From Cliona cf. orientalis (Eukaryota > Porifera > Demospongiae > Clionaida > Clionaidae), in assembly GCA_963930775.1 (NCBI GenBank), contig OZ005694.1:4395054-4459053 (forward strand): 64,000 nt of DNA. Reading direction: 5' to 3'. Shown piece after piece: positions 4,701-62,615 of the stretch. Under the pieces are notes generated by a model. That model saw only the letters and a list, made by a program, of their open reading frames with translations. It was not told the origin of the DNA and did no database searches. Numbering within the stretch: position 1 is the first letter of the stretch; each line of letters begins with the position of its first letter. A program made the translations under genes and the position numbers.

Positions 4701-7700
4701 AAAAAAAATCTGGCTTCATTTTAATATAATTATGTTTATACACAAGTAAAATGTAGCTATGGGCGCAATTAATTATTGCTCTGATATATGCATGCAACTT
4801 AATGCAGAATTTAAACACCTATTTTCAGAAAGCGACTCTATCTACCCGAGTGAATAAAGGTGGTCATAACTCCACTTGTCATGGCGATTATGTGACCAAC
4901 TCGTACAATAACGGTTTTTTCACGTGACCAATACATACTAGTTGCCGCCCACGCGTTCTCCATATGTGTACTAGTGGTGCTGTACAGGGCCAGCCTTTGC
5001 AAAAGTCAAGCTAAGATCTCTTTGAAAGCAGAAAGGCACAGGGCTGGTGTAGTATGTCAGTCAGTTGCACGAGTGATATAATAACATAGCTAGGCCTAAA
5101 AAGCTACCTTGAGAGTGAAAAAAGCATGAGTTGCTAGTAGTCCAGTGTATAAGTGTAGCTAGTCTACATGCATGCCTTGGCATCATGAGTCCAAGTATAC
5201 CTGTAGCCAGGCCCTGTAGACTACACTCCAAGCAACTCGCCATGCAGTCATCTTCATGCTGAAATGATCATCCCACAAACATACAAAGAACATATAAAAC
5301 TGCTTCCTGGGGCTCGCCCCGAATTTGGAGAAATAGAAGCCCCCCCCCCCCCCCCCCCAAGGTGGGCTGTGGGCACAGCCTAACTATTAATGTTGTCACA
5401 CAGTACACAGTCAAAGATCTGAGTCCCCTCCCCCTTTTGCTACATGTACCTGTTCTCCGCCCTTGAAAGTTCAATATATATACGATAATAATAATTATTA
5501 CTATAAGTCATTAGACTCTAGTTATCGCAAATACTGTGATTTGATTGGTTAAAAACAAGGATTCTAAGTTACTTAGAAACCCTCTATATGCAACGCCGCT
5601 GTGGGCTAGCGTAGTCTGAGTCTTATTGTACTTGTGTCATTTACTGACTTAGCACTGACTGATCATATCACATGAGCATACACAATAAGTAGAACAGCAT
5701 TATGCAATACGATTACGTCATTAATAAACCTAACAATTACATCACTAAACCACAAATCAGGAACACAACTCAACTAATTAAACAGATCAGGAAACACAGT
5801 TATTACATCACCCGCTCCCTATCTCACACGTCCTCGGGTGTTCAAAGTTTACTTTCGAAGATTGTAGCGAGTTCGAGCTCGCTTTCGCTCTTTCTTTGGC
5901 CCAAGCCACGATTCGTCGGCCAACTCAGGTGGGCAGGGAGTGACTCGGTCAACATTCACAAGTATTGGTTTCATATTAGGCTTGTCAACCGGTCTGACAG
6001 ACAATCCATTCGTCAACACCTCGACAATTCTGTACGGCCCATGATATGGAAGTGAAAGTTTGTCTGTTTTCTCGTGAGGCATGAACACCATAACCCTGCC
6101 TGCCACCTGGTACTTGGGCTCCTTTGAATGTTTGTCGTATTGAACCTTCTGACGTTGTTGTGCCTTACCAATGTTCTGTTTCGCCACTTGCCATGTTTTC
6201 GTTAAACCTCGAGTTAATTCCGCACAATAGTCTTCTGCATCTACTTGATACTGGGTGCGGGTTTCAGAGAATGCAGTTTCGGTAGGCAAACGTGAATCAC
6301 GACCATAAACCATGTAGAATGGTGACTCCCCAGTTGAAGAGTGTGGTCTAGCCCGATAAGCAAATAACACCTGCTGGAGGTGCACATCCCATGATGGACC
6401 GAACTCCTTAGCATGCTTGGCTAACATTGTTTGCAGAGTCCTATTAAAGTTTTCCACGAGTCCATCGCACTGAGGATGGTATGCGGTGGTATTGATCTTG
6501 TGCATGCCGAGCAAGTTGCATACCTCCTGCATAAGACCTGATAGTAAGTTCTGACCCCTGTCTGACAACAACTCGGCAGGTACCCCATGCCGGCAGACAA
6601 TGTTATCAACTAGTAACCTGGCTATAGTCTCACTGGTTTGATCCTCAGTGGCATAGGCCTCCACCCACTTCGTAAGATAATCCATGAAGACTATCACATA
6701 CTGGTTCCCCCTTTCCGTCAGCGGCATCTTCATAATGTCGACTCCTACCCTTTCAAAGGGTCCAGAAACTGGAATTGGCTGCAGTGGAGCTCTGTGCCGA
6801 CGGCCAGTACCATTGTGAGAAGCACAGGTGAGGCAAGCACGGCAGTAACGATGTACATCCCCATACATCCCTTCCCACCAATACCGCCTAGCCAGGGTAT
6901 TATACATACTCCTAGCAGCAAAATGACCAGAAAGACTACCACCATGAATTTCCTCCAACAACTTCCTCTGAGAGTTGGAAGGTACAGCTACTCGGAGTGA
7001 ATTCTCACGAGCCACATCTACATAAAACAAAACACCATCTTGTATTGTGAATCGAGACCGCTCCAAAACCAAACGCTTGGCAAGCTTCTCGTCAGTGGGC
7101 AATACTCCACCATCCAGATATTCAATAATAGCCTTTAATTTGGGATCATCTCGCTGCTGACTAGCCATATTGTCAGTAGCAACCGTATTAGTGGTTGTCT
7201 CATCTGCCTGTACCGAGTTTACAGACTCCAGAGGGGCTCTGGAAAGGGCATCCGCATTGCTATGCTGACGACCCGGACGATACTTAATTTCCACATTGAA
7301 CTCAGCAATCGTCTGACCCCACCTAGCCAGCTTCCCAGACTGGTGCTTAGCCTTAAGCAGAGCACGGAGTGGAGCATGATCAGTGACAACCACACAAGCA
7401 TGACCCAATAGGTACGCTCTAAAGTGTCTGAGCGCCCACACAACCCCTAAGGCCTCCAAGTCAGTGATCCCATAATTTTTCTCATGCTTCGACAAAGTAC
7501 GGCTAGCATAAGCCACAGGGTGATTTTTGCCTTCCTCACCCTCCTGTTCTAGCACTGCCCCCAACCCTTTCCCACTAGCATCAGTGTGCAAAGTGAACGG
7601 GCGAGCAAAATCAGGGTAAGCTAGTACAGGTGGCTCTGATAGCAACTGTTTCAAACTGTCAAAAGATTGTTGACATTCCCCGGTCCAGTGAAATGGTACC

Positions 7701-10700
7701 TCCTGCCTAGTCAGGGAATGCAACGGCCCAGCTACCCGTGCAAAGTTGGGTACAAATCGACGATAATACCCAGCAAGGCCTAAGAACTCCCGGACCTCCT
7801 TCACATTTGTGGGATTCCTAAATTCCTTTACTGCCTTAACCTTGTCAGGATTGGGTAAGATTCCCTCAGCTGTGATAACATGCCCCAAGTAGTGTACTTT
7901 AGGGGATGCAAACTCACACTTTGCCGGGTGTAGTCTCACTCCAACCTCCCTCAATCGATCAAAGACCAGCTGCAGGTGCTCCAGATGTTCACCCACCGAA
8001 CTGGAGAGAACAATCATATCATCAATATAGACATTACAAAACTCACCAAACCCTCGTAACGCATGGTGCATTAAACGCTGGAATGTCGCCGGCCCATTGC
8101 ACACTCCAAACGGCATGACACGAAACTCGTATAGCCCATCATGTGTCGAAAAGGCTGTCTTCTCCTGCGATTCGGACCCCATCTTAATCTGCCAGTATCC
8201 TGAGCGAGCGTCGAGAGTGGTGAAGATCTTTTTCCCACCAAGTTGATCCAACATGTCATCGATGCGAGGCATCGGGAAGACATCTTTCCGAGTAACCGCA
8301 TTTAGCGCCCGATAATCAACACAGAATCGGTACTCGCCACTCTTCTTTTTCACCAGCACCACCGGACTACTCCAGGGGCTGTTCGACTCTTGCACTACCT
8401 TGGTCTTGAGCATGTTGTCCACTAGCCCTTTAATCGTTGGCCTGAGGGAAAATGGAACTCTCCTAGGTGGTTGGCGTATAGGAGGACTATCCCCAGTATC
8501 GATTTCGTGCCTGATTCCTTCCACCTCGCCTCTTTCCAATTCAGAGAGTGCAAACACATCATGGGCTTCCAAAACAAAGTCACGCACCCTCGTTTGCTCA
8601 TCTTGCGTCAGCCCTTCCTCACTGACTCTCAACATTTCTTTCAACTTTTCCACTCTTTCTTTTTGAATATTCTCATCGATTCGATTTACCAGTCCCACTG
8701 GTTCCTCGTTCGTTTCGTCATTAACCAGTTCCCCTGGTGATATCTCAACACACGGCTCAATTTGTCCCGCAGGTATCCCAATGGATAATTTGTGTGTGTC
8801 ACGACTTGGATTCTGGACCAACAAATGCACACACCCTTCGTCATCAGGTTGAACTACGGACTCTTCGATCTTTAAACCAGTATCTGCCATCCAACGTTGG
8901 TTTGGTTGGAAGAACACAGAATCAGTTGAAGGAGTACTGTTAGGTAACTTTGCTTTGACAATGACAGCACCTCCGCCTGGAACTCGTTTGGGTTGTATGA
9001 AACAAACAGTTGGGCTTCGATCTCCTCCTCGTGGTTCCACTCCAGGACCTGGCACCATCAGTCCCAACGGAATCACCACGTTCGTGCCTAGCAAGCACGG
9101 CTCTCCTCCCACTCCAAGGTCAGAACGGAGGAAGACAGTTGAGGTGACTGATTTGCCTCCCCACTCAAAAGTGAGCTCAACACACGCCCCAATTGGTATC
9201 GGTCGCTGGCTGTAGTCTCGCAGCACAAGGCCTGAGTCGAGTGGCTTCAATGCCTCCTTCAAAATGCCAGCTCTCCGTCCAATTTTCTGAAACAAATTGA
9301 ATGACATTATGGTTGCTGATGAGCCGGGATCAACCATGCCTTCCACAGGAGTACCACCAACAGTAACAGTGGCATAGTAGAGGGGGCCAAGTGAACCTGT
9401 GACGGCGTCGACTGCGGCATTGGAGGAGTATGACTTACTCATCCTTTGGTACTCGGCTTCTGCAAGCTGATCAGCCAGCCGACGACATTGGTCATCGAGG
9501 CTCTCCTCTCCCCTAGTGACACGTGCAGCCTTGACTGCTGAACTCGAGCCAGATCGAGTATTCTCCCTTGCGGGTGTCTCAGATGGCGGTCGTCTCTGTG
9601 GACAGTCCCTCTGCTTGTGGCGGGTACTTCCACATTCTCGGCAGCGGGGAAACCGGGAGGAGTTTGACGAGTGACCTGTACGACTAGTGTTTGATCCACG
9701 ATCAGCTGAACTGGAGGGCGTTGCAGCACTGCTGCTGCTACCTGGCGGCTTGTGGAGCTCGTTCAGTTGTCGCTCCTGCTCCTCGGCTGCCCTCGCTTGG
9801 TGCAGGCTGTCTGCAAACGTCTTCGCTGATGGAAGAACTTTTTCCTGCCACTTCATCTTTAGCCCAAGCACAAATAGGTCACGCTTCAATAGGTCCTTCG
9901 ACTCTTGGTCCATCCCGGATCGACGACCATAGCTGCGATCAAAAAGTGTTTCAAATTCCTGCGCATACTGGTCAACAGACTCAGATGGCAGCTGCTTCCT
10001 TTTCATTAGCTGAGCAGAGAGGAGTGCATCTCTCCTGGCAGGTGCCAGACGCTTCTTCAGGCCTTCTACGGCAGACTTGAAGGAGCTCTTTGACTCTGAA
10101 GGTAGTACTTCAAACAGGCGCTCCGCTCTACCCTTCAAGCGTAGCTCGAGCTGTACTAGCTTCTCCCTGTCACTCCAACTTTCCAACTCAGCATACTTCT
10201 CTAACTTACGCACCCATCGCTCAAACAAGTCCTCATCATCCCTACACTCTTCACCCGAAAATGTAGGCAGAGTAGGTAGTGATAGGCGTACCGTTCGTCC
10301 ACTGTTGGCCACAGGTACAGTCTCCTTCTTATGCTGTGGGTCGGGGGTACACCCGCTCCCTGTGCTTGAGGACGGTGGGGGTGCTTCCGTATCCATAGCC
10401 TTTGGCTCATTCTGCCGACTCAGCTTCTCTTTCAGTAGAGCTATGAGCTCATCTCTGGCCTCAAGCTCTTTCCTGTGGTCTCTCTGAGCCTGCTCTCTCA
10501 CCCTAGCAGCTTGTAGCTCAGCATCTCTCTCGGCGCTCTCGAGTTTCCACTCCAAGCGGTCAACTTCGTCGCGAGCATCGTCAAGTTCGAGTTCTAATTG
10601 ACGCACATGCTCCTCTGACCCCGCGAGGTCAGACTCCGCCCTTTTCAATCTTGTCTTGACCTCACGTTCGACCCCGGACGCCACGTGGTCCGTAGTACCT

Positions 10701-11587
10701 TCGAGATCTTTCTTGAGCTGTCCAATCTCCTGCTCAAGACCGAGCACACGCCGCTCTGCCTCATCGGCTCTCTCCAGAGCCTCGTCTCTTTCGGCTTCAA
10801 CGTCGGCATCGAGACGCCTCTCAGCGGCTCGGAGCTTCTCTGTTAGCTGATCAACGGCTTGCTTTAAATCAGCCTTCGTCTTTTGCTTAGGTGGCATGAT
10901 AACCGAACGAACACAGTCCCACTGCGTATTTTGGCCACCTTTGGTCTCGGCGGGACCTCCAAATGCAACGCCGCTGTGGGCTAGCGTAGTCTGAGTCTTA
11001 TTGTACTTGTGTCATTTACTGACTTAGCACTGACTGATCATATCACATGAGCATACACAATAAGTAGAACAGCATTATGCAATACGATTACGTCATTAAT
11101 AAACCTAACAATTACATCACTAAACCACAAATCAGGAACACAACTCAACTAATTAAACAGATCAGGAAACACAGTTATTACATATACTTAGAAAGCTAGT
11201 TCTTTAGGCAATAACATACAAGAAGTTACTAAGCAACAGCATATATACTAGAGTCTAGACTAAACAAGTTAGACACTTCAGCCAATGGGATCTACAGTCC
11301 TTAGAATACTTCAGACGCTTATAAAACCCTCAGGCTTCGCCTTCGGGATTTTATATCGTATTCTAAATCCTGTAGATCCCTTGGCTTCAGTGTCTATCTT
11401 ATATTTGTACTCCAATAGATATTCAGTGATGCTCCAGTGTTGGGATATTGAGCCAGGTAGTAGGCCTTCGTTCTCTGATTTGGTGAAGACCATTTCCACC
11501 TCTCTTGAGGAGATGTCTGACTATCTTCATGTTGGCGCCTTCACTGATCTTGATTGCATCACTGGAGAAGCTGAGCACAAAGTTTAA
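1..11587 (+). CDS. Receptor tyrosine kinase, EGF/Ig ectodomain (5' end outside window)
   Basis: A single-pass receptor tyrosine kinase assembled from exons joined by in-frame GT-AG introns. Exons read as 1-50, 120-242, 305-343, 397-729, 785-919, 983-1111, 1172-1300, 1612-1734, 2067-2211, 2472-2608, 2657-2734, 2807-3042, 3144-3214, 3295-3460, 3810-3952 and 11419-11587, with the stop TAA at 11585-11587. Order of parts: EGF-like, EGF-like, Ig-like, four EGF-like, membrane helix, kinase. The product should sit in the plasma membrane and phosphorylate tyrosines after ligand binding; the ligand cannot be told. Most introns are 50-350 bp, but the last is about 7.5 kb because an LTR retrotransposon lies in it. 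Signal peptide and first exons are upstream of the window. Animals, sponges especially, have many lineage-specific RTKs of this kind, so no vertebrate gene name is assigned. Confidence 0.9.
1311..1529. repeat. Palindromic MITE, TACCGTATTTC family, copy 1
   Basis: About 219 bp in an RTK intron with inverted ends ACCGTATTTCCTCTAAAAA and the complement of GCCGAATTTTTAGGAG. It encodes nothing. The same sequence occurs in inverted orientation at 19515-19730 and as decayed pieces near 1819-1960 and 52591-52647. Ends and length fit a non-autonomous DNA transposon. Confidence 0.7.
2067..2211 (+). CDS. RTK transmembrane exon
   Basis: The exon encodes a run of about 27 hydrophobic residues ([20 protein letters not shown] and onward) followed at once by a basic stretch (KLYKKIR), giving a type I membrane topology with the kinase inside the cell. 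The acceptor is the AG at 2065-2066 and the donor the GT at 2212; the frame continues cleanly into the juxtamembrane exon at 2472. Confidence 0.85.
2472..11587 (+). CDS. RTK kinase domain exons
   Basis: All the main tyrosine-kinase landmarks are visible: glycine loop [12 protein letters not shown] across the 2608/2657 junction, VAIK lysine in exon 2657-2734, HRDLAARN catalytic loop in 3144-3214, ADFGLA at the start of 3295-3460, MWMAPE after it, SDVWSYGV across the 3460/3810 junction, and [14 protein letters not shown] in 11419-11587. HRDLAARN is the form used by tyrosine, not serine/threonine, kinases. Exon 2807-3042 has a short acidic insert after the hinge (DGEDED), where many RTKs carry a kinase insert. 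The C-terminal tail is short and contains one tyrosine (SDYLHV), a possible docking site. No inactivating change was seen, so it is probably active. Confidence 0.88.
3953..5588. other. RTK last intron, part left of the LTR element
   Basis: Non-coding. I find no exon with splice sites that would extend the kinase reading here, and no recognisable protein. It contains a run of 18 C residues near 5341-5358 and AT-rich unique-looking sequence. The last exon is only reached at 11419, so all of this belongs to the same intron. Confidence 0.6.
5589..5807 (-). repeat. 3' LTR of the Ty3/gypsy element
   Basis: 219 bp, matching 10964-11182 base for base as far as I can read. Because the element is on the minus strand this left copy is its 3' LTR. 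Read on the plus strand it begins TGCAACGCCGCTG and ends CAGTTATTACA. Confidence 0.93.
5849..10897 (-). CDS. Fused Gag-Pol polyprotein of the Ty3/gypsy element
   Basis: One frame of 1,682 residues starting at the ATG at 10897. Residues about 1-165 form a charged coiled coil; 215-390 are a retrotransposon Gag domain; near 435-450 is a CCHC zinc knuckle ([14 protein letters not shown]); near 520-600 a retropepsin-type protease; about 820-1000 the reverse transcriptase with YIDDM; then RNase H ([11 protein letters not shown]), the integrase HHCC zinc-binding module, the integrase core (TAYHPQCDG near its end) and a GPY/F-like tail. No chromodomain is seen. It would copy its RNA into DNA and integrate it. 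Gag and Pol are in the same frame, so no frameshift is needed to make Pol. The long N-terminal coiled coil before Gag is unusual. Confidence 0.95.
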   Translation of the reverse strand: MPPKQKTKADLKQAVDQLTEKLRAAERRLDADVEAERDEALERADEAERRVLGLEQEIGQLKKDLEGTTDHVASGVEREVKTRLKRAESDLAGSEEHVRQLELELDDARDEVDRLEWKLESAERDAELQAARVREQAQRDHRKELEARDELIALLKEKLSRQNEPKAMDTEAPPPSSSTGSGCTPDPQHKKETVPVANSGRTVRLSLPTLPTFSGEECRDDEDLFERWVRKLEKYAELESWSDREKLVQLELRLKGRAERLFEVLPSESKSSFKSAVEGLKKRLAPARRDALLSAQLMKRKQLPSESVDQYAQEFETLFDRSYGRRSGMDQESKDLLKRDLFVLGLKMKWQEKVLPSAKTFADSLHQARAAEEQERQLNELHKPPGSSSSAATPSSSADRGSNTSRTGHSSNSSRFPRCRECGSTRHKQRDCPQRRPPSETPARENTRSGSSSAVKAARVTRGEESLDDQCRRLADQLAEAEYQRMSKSYSSNAAVDAVTGSLGPLYYATVTVGGTPVEGMVDPGSSATIMSFNLFQKIGRRAGILKEALKPLDSGLVLRDYSQRPIPIGACVELTFEWGGKSVTSTVFLRSDLGVGGEPCLLGTNVVIPLGLMVPGPGVEPRGGDRSPTVCFIQPKRVPGGGAVIVKAKLPNSTPSTDSVFFQPNQRWMADTGLKIEESVVQPDDEGCVHLLVQNPSRDTHKLSIGIPAGQIEPCVEISPGELVNDETNEEPVGLVNRIDENIQKERVEKLKEMLRVSEEGLTQDEQTRVRDFVLEAHDVFALSELERGEVEGIRHEIDTGDSPPIRQPPRRVPFSLRPTIKGLVDNMLKTKVVQESNSPWSSPVVLVKKKSGEYRFCVDYRALNAVTRKDVFPMPRIDDMLDQLGGKKIFTTLDARSGYWQIKMGSESQEKTAFSTHDGLYEFRVMPFGVCNGPATFQRLMHHALRGFGEFCNVYIDDMIVLSSSVGEHLEHLQLVFDRLREVGVRLHPAKCEFASPKVHYLGHVITAEGILPNPDKVKAVKEFRNPTNVKEVREFLGLAGYYRRFVPNFARVAGPLHSLTRQEVPFHWTGECQQSFDSLKQLLSEPPVLAYPDFARPFTLHTDASGKGLGAVLEQEGEEGKNHPVAYASRTLSKHEKNYGITDLEALGVVWALRHFRAYLLGHACVVVTDHAPLRALLKAKHQSGKLARWGQTIAEFNVEIKYRPGRQHSNADALSRAPLESVNSVQADETTTNTVATDNMASQQRDDPKLKAIIEYLDGGVLPTDEKLAKRLVLERSRFTIQDGVLFYVDVARENSLRVAVPSNSQRKLLEEIHGGSLSGHFAARSMYNTLARRYWWEGMYGDVHRYCRACLTCASHNGTGRRHRAPLQPIPVSGPFERVGVDIMKMPLTERGNQYVIVFMDYLTKWVEAYATEDQTSETIARLLVDNIVCRHGVPAELLSDRGQNLLSGLMQEVCNLLGMHKINTTAYHPQCDGLVENFNRTLQTMLAKHAKEFGPSWDVHLQQVLFAYRARPHSSTGESPFYMVYGRDSRLPTETAFSETRTQYQVDAEDYCAELTRGLTKTWQVAKQNIGKAQQRQKVQYDKHSKEPKYQVAGRVMVFMPHEKTDKLSLPYHGPYRIVEVLTNGLSVRPVDKPNMKPILVNVDRVTPCPPELADESWLGPKKERKRARTRYNLRK
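10964..11182 (-). repeat. 5' LTR of the Ty3/gypsy element
   Basis: 219 bp twin of 5589-5807 and, given the element's orientation, its promoter-bearing 5' LTR. Any transcript from it would run leftward, antisense to the host RTK gene. Confidence 0.93.
11281..11390. repeat. Imperfect hairpin just upstream of the last RTK exon
   Basis: The stretch GGGATCTACAGTCCTTAGAA is mirrored about 80 bases on by its near-complement (TTCTAAATCCTGTAGATCCC), with a smaller inner hairpin around CTTCGCCTTCGGG. It ends about 30 bp before the acceptor at 11418. Probably a small foldback element. Confidence 0.55.
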
Positions 11588-61221: not shown

Positions 61222-61680
61222 CTAGACTTATAACCAAAGAAAATACTAAGCTTTAGCTACTAAACTAGCTAGGTTTTGACTATAAACTGTGAGTACTTTC
61301 TTCGTGATAGTTCTACTCGCTCGTCCTTTCCTTTTTTCTCGTTCAAGAATGAAAAATGAAAAATGAGACATCCTTGATGCCTGTACCAATGTGGCAGTGT
61401 ATAGCAGTAGCATGGAATAGAATCGCTTGACTTCGAGAAACGAACCTTTGAAAATGAGAGAAATTCATTCTGTCCTGGGTAGGGCACAGTACACGGATGG
61501 ATATGAGGACATATACGAGATTATTGCATTATATACCCATGTAATACATATGCACGCGTGCGTGATTATCATAATACCGTAGAAACTGGTTGTTAAGCGC
61601 ATGCGCTTATAACACGCGGCAGCAAGAAAATATGCGCTTAACAAAAGTATGCGCTTACAAGTTGTGAAATGTCTGCCTTT

Positions 61681-61885: not shown

Positions 61886-62130
61886 GAGAGATATGCTTAT
61901 TTGATTTGGAAAGTGGTAAATGGTACATACTCCAGCATGTCCAAACAAAGCAAGCTCTTTGGCAATAGTTGGCAAGCAGAATAAAATTATTATCACCATT
62001 GTTATCACTAATTGACAAAGATGAATAATTGGTACTGAAGAAGCACACTTAGATATAGTGTAAATAACTGTGTGCTGGCAAATACTCACAATAGCTACTA
62101 GCAACTTTCTTTCACTCATCAATAATCAAT

Positions 62131-62174
62131 TCATCGAAGCTTTTCGGCTAACATGGTTAGCCTCATCAGGATGA
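62131..62174 (-). ncRNA. Type I hammerhead ribozyme motif, left arm (mirror copy)
   Basis: Exact reverse complement of 62449-62492 and therefore the same hammerhead core on the minus strand, reading 62174 down to 62131, with predicted cleavage between 62136 and 62135. An RNA from either strand across the palindrome would contain one ribozyme and one anti-ribozyme and would tend to fold on itself unless cleavage is co-transcriptional. Confidence 0.72.
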
Positions 62175-62448
62175 TAAAAAAATGAACGAAAGAAAAACCT
62201 TATATAGAAATAAGGGAGAAAACATGGCTCAACACAAGACAGACAATGAGGGCCAATAAACAATAAACAGATGTATGGAGTGTAAAAGACGATTAGGGCT
62301 ACCTAGTCAACGTTGACTAGGTAGCCCTAATCGTCTTTTACACTCCATACATCTGTTTATTGTTTATTGGCCCTCATTGTCTGTCTTGTGTTGAGCCATG
62401 TTTTCTCCCTTATTTCTATATAAGGTTTTTCTTTCGTTCATTTTTTTA

Positions 62449-62492
62449 TCATCCTGATGAGGCTAACCATGTTAGCCGAAAAGCTTCGATGA
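62449..62492 (+). ncRNA. Type I hammerhead ribozyme motif, right arm
   Basis: In order: helix I 5' strand TCATC (62449-62453); core CTGATGA (62454-62460); helix II GGCTAAC/GTTAGCC (62461-62467 with 62471-62477) closed by CAT; core GAAA (62478-62481); minimal helix III formed by AA and UU around GC; U16.1 and C17 at 62486-62487; predicted cleavage after 62487; helix I 3' strand GATGA (62488-62492), exact complement of TCATC. Every conserved core position is met and the layout has helix I open. A 2 bp helix III with a 2-base loop is like the newt satellite and Penelope-like hammerheads, which often act as dimers. Confidence 0.75.
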
Positions 62493-62615
62493 ATTGATTA
62501 TTGATGAGTGAAAGAAAGTTGCTAGTAGCTATTGTGAGTATTTGCCAGCACACAGTTATTTACACTATATCACTAATTGACAAAGATGAATAATTGGTAC
62601 TGAAGAAGCACACTT

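Follow-up and report, generated by a model that had tools for sequence, protein, structure and literature searches.

A perfect palindrome in the window, the whole 64,000-nucleotide stretch of Cliona cf. orientalis DNA analysed here, is probably an insertion of a Penelope-like element (PLE) that lacks ORFs and consists of two head-to-head pseudo-LTRs (pLTRs), each with a minimal hammerhead motif. We put the probability that it is such an insertion, and that it arose by two-sided priming of reverse transcription, at roughly 0.7. This reading builds on a single insertion with a 48-bp duplication, a repeat family, ORF-bearing relatives and a pattern of junctions, from which we infer the priming steps.

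The window palindrome and its empty site

Positions 62052-62571 form a perfect palindrome of 520 bp, with arms of 260 bp that are 100% complementary and a spacer of 0. The palindrome had been noticed in an earlier sequence-only reading, but with limits that were too narrow. The features of the region are as follows.

62003..62050, no strand: target-site duplication, left copy, 48 bp; identical to 62568-62615, present once at the empty C14 site
62052..62311, minus strand: inverted pLTR, left arm, 260 bp; perfect reverse complement of 62312-62571
62131..62174, minus strand: mirror hammerhead core; predicted cleavage 62136/62135
62199..62206, minus strand: mirror TATA-like box
62293..62330, no strand: central 38-bp palindrome, halves TTAGGGCTACCTAGTCAAC and GTTGACTAGGTAGCCCTAA, the 5' hairpin of the pLTR, as read from the sequence
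62312..62571, plus strand: pLTR, right arm, 260 bp; 5' end GTTGACTAGGTAGCCC, 3' end at the target duplication; member of the repeat family, laid out as in the family C ORF-bearing pLTR
62417..62424, plus strand: TATA-like box TATATAAG of putative function, starting 37 nt upstream of CTGATGA
62427..62441, plus strand: distal helix I, 5' strand; pairs with 62504-62518
62449..62492, plus strand: hammerhead core; predicted cleavage 62487/62488
62504..62518, plus strand: distal helix I, 3' strand; pairs with 62427-62441
62568..62615, no strand: target-site duplication, right copy, 48 bp; its first 4 bases overlap the arm end

Contig C14 holds an empty paralogous site, where the 48-bp sequence occurs only once. 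The left flank of the palindrome matches C14:5964272-5964433 and the right flank C14:5964386-5964518, with an overlap of exactly 48 bp. When the window flanks are joined with a single 48-bp copy, 247 of 256 aligned bases equal those of the C14 site, with one 12-nt gap in the left flank. Because the empty site carries the sequence once, the 48-bp repeat is a target-site duplication, and the palindrome is one insertion.

Two further features of the window lie outside the insertion. Positions 61570-61657 are a piece of an abundant repeat: the query that contained them gave 783 first-look candidates, most of the scored ones matched this region, and a short inverted second piece was often matched as well. 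On the minus strand, positions 5849-10897 hold an open frame of 1682 aa that looks, by eye, like a Ty3-type polyprotein.

Hammerhead motifs in the arms

The sequence-only reading had placed a hammerhead motif on each strand, with coordinates and letters that are correct. In the plus-strand core, helix I (62449-62453 and 62488-62492) encloses CTGATGA (62454-62460), helix II GGCTAAC-CAT-GTTAGCC (62461-62477) and GAA (62478-62480). On the helix III side, an A15.1-U16.1 pair closes a palindromic AGCT tetraloop, C17 is at 62487, and cleavage is predicted before 62488. The motif had been described as a minimal hammerhead. This type is indeed known from PLEs, but in the window copy 15 further helix I pairs, 3 of them G-U, can form beyond an internal loop. 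The distal helix I is less regular in other copies.

The claim that the core set exceeds chance is borne out by a folding z of -3.1 for the 48-nt core and by the excess of genomic matches over a reversed pattern given below. The Rfam check that had been suggested did not turn out as hoped: the scan of the window gave nothing at gathering, and no hammerhead appeared up to E = 10 over 851 bases. MicroRNA matches across the palindrome stay below gathering and are due to the long hairpin. A genome search with RF00163, in which 73 of 21,693 candidates were scored, gave 13 matches, none from the hammerhead family of the window arm. Rfam Hammerhead_1 probably misses this family because helix III is almost absent. 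Four of the RF00163 matches are above gathering (C16:2350071-2350115, C16:2371824-2371868, C14:6560502-6560558 and C2:13665097-13665145); they are other ribozymes in other places. By its structure, a conserved core together with a covarying helix II, the window motif classifies as a hammerhead ribozyme, and self-cleavage is predicted.

It had also been suggested that either strand yields a self-cleaving RNA. This is doubtful for transcripts of the entire palindrome, which are predicted to fold as a 258-bp hairpin (-471.5 kcal/mol). Since a read-through RNA holds the ribozyme together with its perfect antisense, both ribozymes are probably masked, and only RNA started inside an arm would escape. 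The TATA-like box, TATATAAG or TATTTAAG, was located in a single arm from each of families A, B and C (positions 106, 115 and 109), 35-38 nt upstream of CTGATGA. Its placement suggests that RNAs may start near the ribozyme.

Repeat family and covariation

With up to one mismatch allowed, CTGATGA-N17-GAAAAGCTT matches the genome 89 times (60 exact) and the reversed pattern 11 times; several of the one-mismatch matches lack helix II pairing and look like chance. For the shorter CTGATGA-N17-GAAA, the counts are 253 and 149. The reversed controls imply that a part of the pattern matches is due to chance. Compared with the 216.8-Mb genome, the arm plus 129 bp of flank gave 54 matching pieces, of which two or more cover flank alone.

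The 87 cores collected for alignment reduce to 51 distinct ones and, after omission of window position 2511 (a chance match), L097 (truncated) and L099 (a 2-nt insertion), to 48. A second alignment, A2, holds 15 chosen copies. There are three main helix II types: GGCTAAC/GTTAGCC in family A, that of the window, GTCACAT/ATGTGAC in family B, and five inner pairs with an A.A at the base in family C. Helix II covariation in the 48 distinct cores scores 0.352; shuffling gives 0.128 on average, and sliding the partners no more than 0.107. The letters swap between families, and 86.9% of the pairing cells hold a pair. The expectation that genome-wide copies keep helix II through compensating changes is thus supported by this measure. 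On two others (double-change pairs and the count of pair types) the shuffles score at least as high, and 18 of the 48 cores fail to form the fourth helix I pair. In view of these results and of the kinship within families, the weight falls on the change of the whole stem between families.

Neighbouring cores mostly stand head to head. In the core-match list, 11 pairs lie at most 1 kb apart; counted by eye, 10 are oriented (-,+), one is (+,+) and none is (+,-). The (+,+) pair, L074 (C14:2402179-2403367), consists of two pLTRs in direct orientation, 508 bp apart, and is the sole tandem pair among the close cores. The 32-bp centre, GGGCTACCTAGTCAAC followed by GTTGACTAGGTAGCCC, occurs at 32 genomic places with at most two mismatches, seven of them in one array; the reversed control gave 0. 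The array, L069 (C5:9654975-9655655), has seven central palindromes about 50 bp apart, the last of which opens a full pLTR. It may have come from repeated template switching or from later tandem duplication. Family C also includes a perfect palindrome, L058, of 2 x 265 bp, with the centre as in the window and a 49-bp duplication. Another copy, L037, differs from the related L018 and L028 in the orientation of an approximately 780-bp segment next to the arm.

ORF-bearing copies

Coding sequence is present upstream of several family C arms. The copy at C6:5427383-5431668, on the minus strand, reads inverted 3' end (804 nt), 38-bp palindrome, pLTR, ORF1, ORF2, pLTR. Its inverted 3' end is identical at 800 of 804 aligned positions, and its three pLTR copies are identical to the L058 arm. 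ORF1 has 357 aa from the first ATG (frame of 393) and ORF2 639 aa; the ORF2 frame ends only 25 nt from the pLTR. A second copy, C2:10782863-10785958, opens with a 13-bp duplication and an inverted pLTR, continues with ORF1 (from about codon 115), the reverse transcriptase and a pLTR, and closes with the other duplication copy. Its inverted pLTR ends within 3 nt of position 1, at a junction without palindrome.

ORF2 has 361 relatives at E <= 0.001 among 7995 scored, of which 120 are listed. One of them, P0001, is 97% identical to ORF2 and matches P0076, a protein with RVT_1 and GIY-YIG, at 31% identity over 547 aa (E = 3e-63). The Pfam and NCBIfam comparisons of ORF2 gave no Penelope-specific match; on sequence grounds, ORF2 is a Penelope-type reverse transcriptase. 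ORF1 has 29 relatives, none with a listed Pfam domain except P0047, which matches ORF2 too. In ORF1 and ORF2 themselves, neither a Pfam domain nor GIY-YIG was found, and PF01541 is absent from the listings for P0001-P0017.

The features that mark PLEs are present: a reverse transcriptase, direct and inverted pLTRs around an ORF, a hammerhead motif in the pLTR and a target-site duplication. The GIY-YIG domain C-terminal to the reverse transcriptase, as in canonical endonuclease-containing PLEs (Penelope/Poseidon), is not seen. The copies also lack the telomere location of endonuclease-deficient PLEs: if contigs are taken to be chromosomes, the window copy lies at 4.457 Mb and the ORF-bearing copy at 5.43 Mb of the 11.3 Mb of C6, and the other ORF-bearing copy at 10.78 of the 14.8 Mb of C2. 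The arm is classified as the pLTR of an apparently endonuclease-less PLE.

Because the palindrome is two pLTR copies head to head, the hammerhead motif is found on both strands. The mirror-image pair, which had been regarded as unusual, follows from the inverted pLTRs that are frequent in PLEs (PMC3846280, in part); the window's pair is one of the ten close pairs with the same orientation. The ORF-bearing copies that were read belong to family C. Since the centre, the core, the 3' end motif and the layout are shared, family A is likely to have such parents as well.

Elements with GIY-YIG were also considered as parents. Two such PLE types were seen, with no matching arm in the stretches read, which cover the elements partly, and they were set aside when the real parent was found. 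L053 contains a second, canonical-looking hammerhead (minus strand, 2247). It lies in antisense orientation within the ORF of a different PLE type, one whose GIY-YIG is N-terminal, and judged by eye it has a GGCC stem II, a long helix III and a 6-bp helix I.

Junctions across copies

Of 67 loci searched singly (26 plus 41), 14 have target duplications that adjoin the element, as does the C2 ORF-bearing copy; none was seen for the C6 ORF-bearing copy. Their lengths are 48, 51, 20, 12, 16, 49, 15, 58, 46, 32, 65, 50, 18 and 13 bp, and at least 62 bp in L008. The duplications are imperfect (89-97% identical) in L008, L064, L076, L079, L080 and L089. A 17-nt repeat at L074, which is a simple repeat, and short repeats that do not touch the element were not counted. 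Most family B and C stretches extend only about 340 nt before the arm, so that a duplication beyond a long left arm can be missed. The 67 loci include some that overlap and some that are related copies of one insertion (L018/L028/L037 and L024/L027).

The element's 3' terminus, inverted, forms the left end in 12 of the 15 copies with duplications, either directly at the duplication or within about 7 nt of it. The exceptions are L064 and L076, with 12-16 nt of other sequence in between, and L008, which has no inverted 3' end. The left segment varies in length from 6 nt (L089), 8 nt (L011, with a further 14 nt of the centre), 13 nt (L079), about 54 nt (L090), about 100 nt (L088) and 163 nt (L012) to a full arm. 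Shortened left arms retain the outer end and have lost the inner part. The lengths of the left and right segments are unrelated in both ORF-bearing copies, and in L096 two 5'-truncated arms are joined directly, with the centre absent.

Two junctions coincide with the ribozyme cut. The left arm of L077, which lacks the outer end, has position 178 of the family C arm as its first base, immediately past the cut, and that of L038 starts at the cut with one base ambiguous. Two such cases in about 20 inner endpoints, picked by eye from 23 hand-chosen loci and the 41-locus set, have a chance of 0.003 to 0.022 if endpoints are even over 260 positions, a rough and after-the-fact estimate. Genome-wide patterns for further cut-site junctions in families C and A returned only L077 (family C). 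L017 is ambiguous, as a deletion between GATGA repeats explains it equally well.

Origin of the palindrome

The following order of events would account for the window copy. A staggered cut would have produced a pair of 3' overhangs, each about 48 nt long, and each would have served as primer for reverse transcription beginning at the element's 3' end (arm position 260). Both cDNAs would have halted at the 38-nt hairpin that opens the pLTR. The self-complementarity of this hairpin would allow the ends of the two cDNAs to pair, giving a palindrome that is centred exactly and has no spacer. Elsewhere, one of the cDNAs may have ended early, sometimes at a 5' end made by the ribozyme, and been joined by other means. 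Trimming of the element RNA is the likely job of the ribozymes. Two-sided priming has a biochemical precedent in a PLE protein that, in vitro, both cuts the two strands and extends them (PMC11167929). Against it stand the failure to find GIY-YIG or another nuclease in the element, the small share of loci with duplications, the three exceptional left ends (L008, L064 and L076), the small and hand-picked set of cut-site junctions, and L089 and L011, where the outer match is only 6-8 nt. Insertion of the PAc element in vitro, moreover, did not depend on ribozyme cleavage, and RNA ending at that site was not observed (PMC11167929).

We extend this more tentatively, and at somewhat under even odds, to a general scheme in which two-sided target-primed reverse transcription is the normal mode of insertion, the 5' palindrome acts both as a stop for the reverse transcriptase and as an annealing adaptor, and ribozyme-cut RNAs can template one side.

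Perfect palindromes alone do not separate two-sided priming from self-priming, in which one cDNA reaches the 5' palindrome, folds back and copies itself outwards into an inverted arm. Self-priming would readily give perfect palindromes with exact centres and identical arms, and also the array of seven central palindromes at L069; it is the model proposed for the PLEs of Adineta vaga, there on an antisense template, in the available part of PMC3846280. From a fold-back cDNA one would expect the centre to be present and the outside missing, so that self-priming fits many of the Cliona copies poorly. In truncated left arms it is the outer 3' end that remains and the part next to the centre that is gone, the reverse of outward copying, and at L011, L079 and L089 left outer segments of only 6-13 nt are present. 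Moreover, the junction of the C2 copy has no palindrome, and L096 has no centre. The retained outer ends, the variable length of the left segment and the unequal segments of the ORF-bearing copies favour two-sided priming, and we consider self-priming unlikely.

Long palindromes are unstable, and the truncated arms might instead reflect palindrome revision, with a complete inverted dimer formed first and host nucleases later deleting one arm from the hairpin tip. Many truncated arms do meet the other arm at positions 1-7, near the centre, as would then be expected. However, L011, L015, L075 and L077 keep 11-41 nt of the left centre together with a more outer part, and the junctions at the ribozyme cut and the unequal left and right segments of the ORF-bearing copies are not easily reconciled with revision either. 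As a general account it appears improbable; some truncated arms could nevertheless be later deletions of full palindromes, and for this part of the copies deletion from the tip is a live alternative to early cDNA ends.

It is very unlikely that the arms belong to a metazoan retrozyme, a non-autonomous repeat that spreads via ribozyme-cut circular RNA from tandem units. The single-pair helix III with its palindromic tetraloop resembles that of amphibian hammerheads (as far as described in the available part of PMC7229834), and a unit of about 260 nt is inside the animal range of about 150-300 bp given in the accessible text of PMC7761336. There is even one direct pair, L074. The other 10 of the 11 close core pairs are head to head rather than in tandem units, the unit ends are the 5' hairpin and the 3' terminus and not the cleavage site, and the arm is common to ORF-bearing copies.

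A zero-spacer perfect palindrome is a known shape of assembly artefacts, and inverted repeats with flanking duplications resemble MITEs, but the duplications of DNA transposons are short and of fixed length; an artefact or a foldback DNA transposon is hardly credible in view of the independent palindrome L058, the exact 48- and 49-bp duplications, the empty site, the range of duplication lengths (12-65 bp) and the reverse transcriptase in relatives.

Comparison with known systems

Minimal type I hammerheads of PLEs were reportedly described by Cervera and de la Pena (2014) and by Lunse et al. (2017). According to the part of PMC6155905 that was available, minimal hammerheads are present in all PLE sequences known at the time. 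The Cliona motif is like the PLE minimal type I hammerheads in having almost no helix III and in its site in the pseudo-LTR (PMC6155905, PMC7761336, both in part). Compared by description, the window copy differs in its possible distal helix I, its one A-U pair in helix III and its AGCT loop. Metazoan retrozymes, in the partial texts of PMC7229834 and PMC7761336, are similar in being non-autonomous repeats of about 150-300 bp with a type I hammerhead, whose helix III is weak in the amphibian ones; these sources describe tandem units and circular RNA, whereas the Cliona units are inverted and have PLE relatives.

Among PLEs, inverted pLTRs, palindromes at the pLTR 5' end and solo pLTRs have been described (PMC3846280, in the sections available). 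Since these features and minimal hammerheads are known, a head-to-head ribozyme pair is to be expected. A close likeness is to Pen2 and Pen3 of Adineta vaga, which have a head-to-head inverted pLTR on the 5' side, an 18-38 bp palindrome at the pLTR 5' end, solo pLTRs and target duplications; both contain an endonuclease, and their duplications are 8-10 bp or absent (same sections of PMC3846280). In the Cliona element, by contrast, no GIY-YIG was found, there are two ORFs, and the duplications are 12-65 bp with a group near 50, while the window copy is the pLTR pair alone, without an ORF. The Poseidon element PAc of Anolis is likewise a PLE with a hammerhead at the pLTR, with both strands cut and extended and an internal start of reverse transcription, but it has GIY-YIG, a tandem arrangement and a ribozyme that overlaps the ORF start (PMC11167929).

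In the open-licence literature, surveyed mostly by listing, we found no description of PLE insertion as two-sided priming with annealing palindromes. The accessible text of PMC3846280 proposes self-priming and asks for experiments that discriminate between models, and that of PMC7761336 calls the activity and role of the hammerheads in vivo a mystery. The ORF-bearing copy with identical pLTRs offers starting material. As PLE products go, the window palindrome is ordinary, though its form is unusually clean. What is informative is the junctions of the family: with dozens of copies in this genome, some near-identical and some with intact duplications, they help to separate the models of PLE integration.
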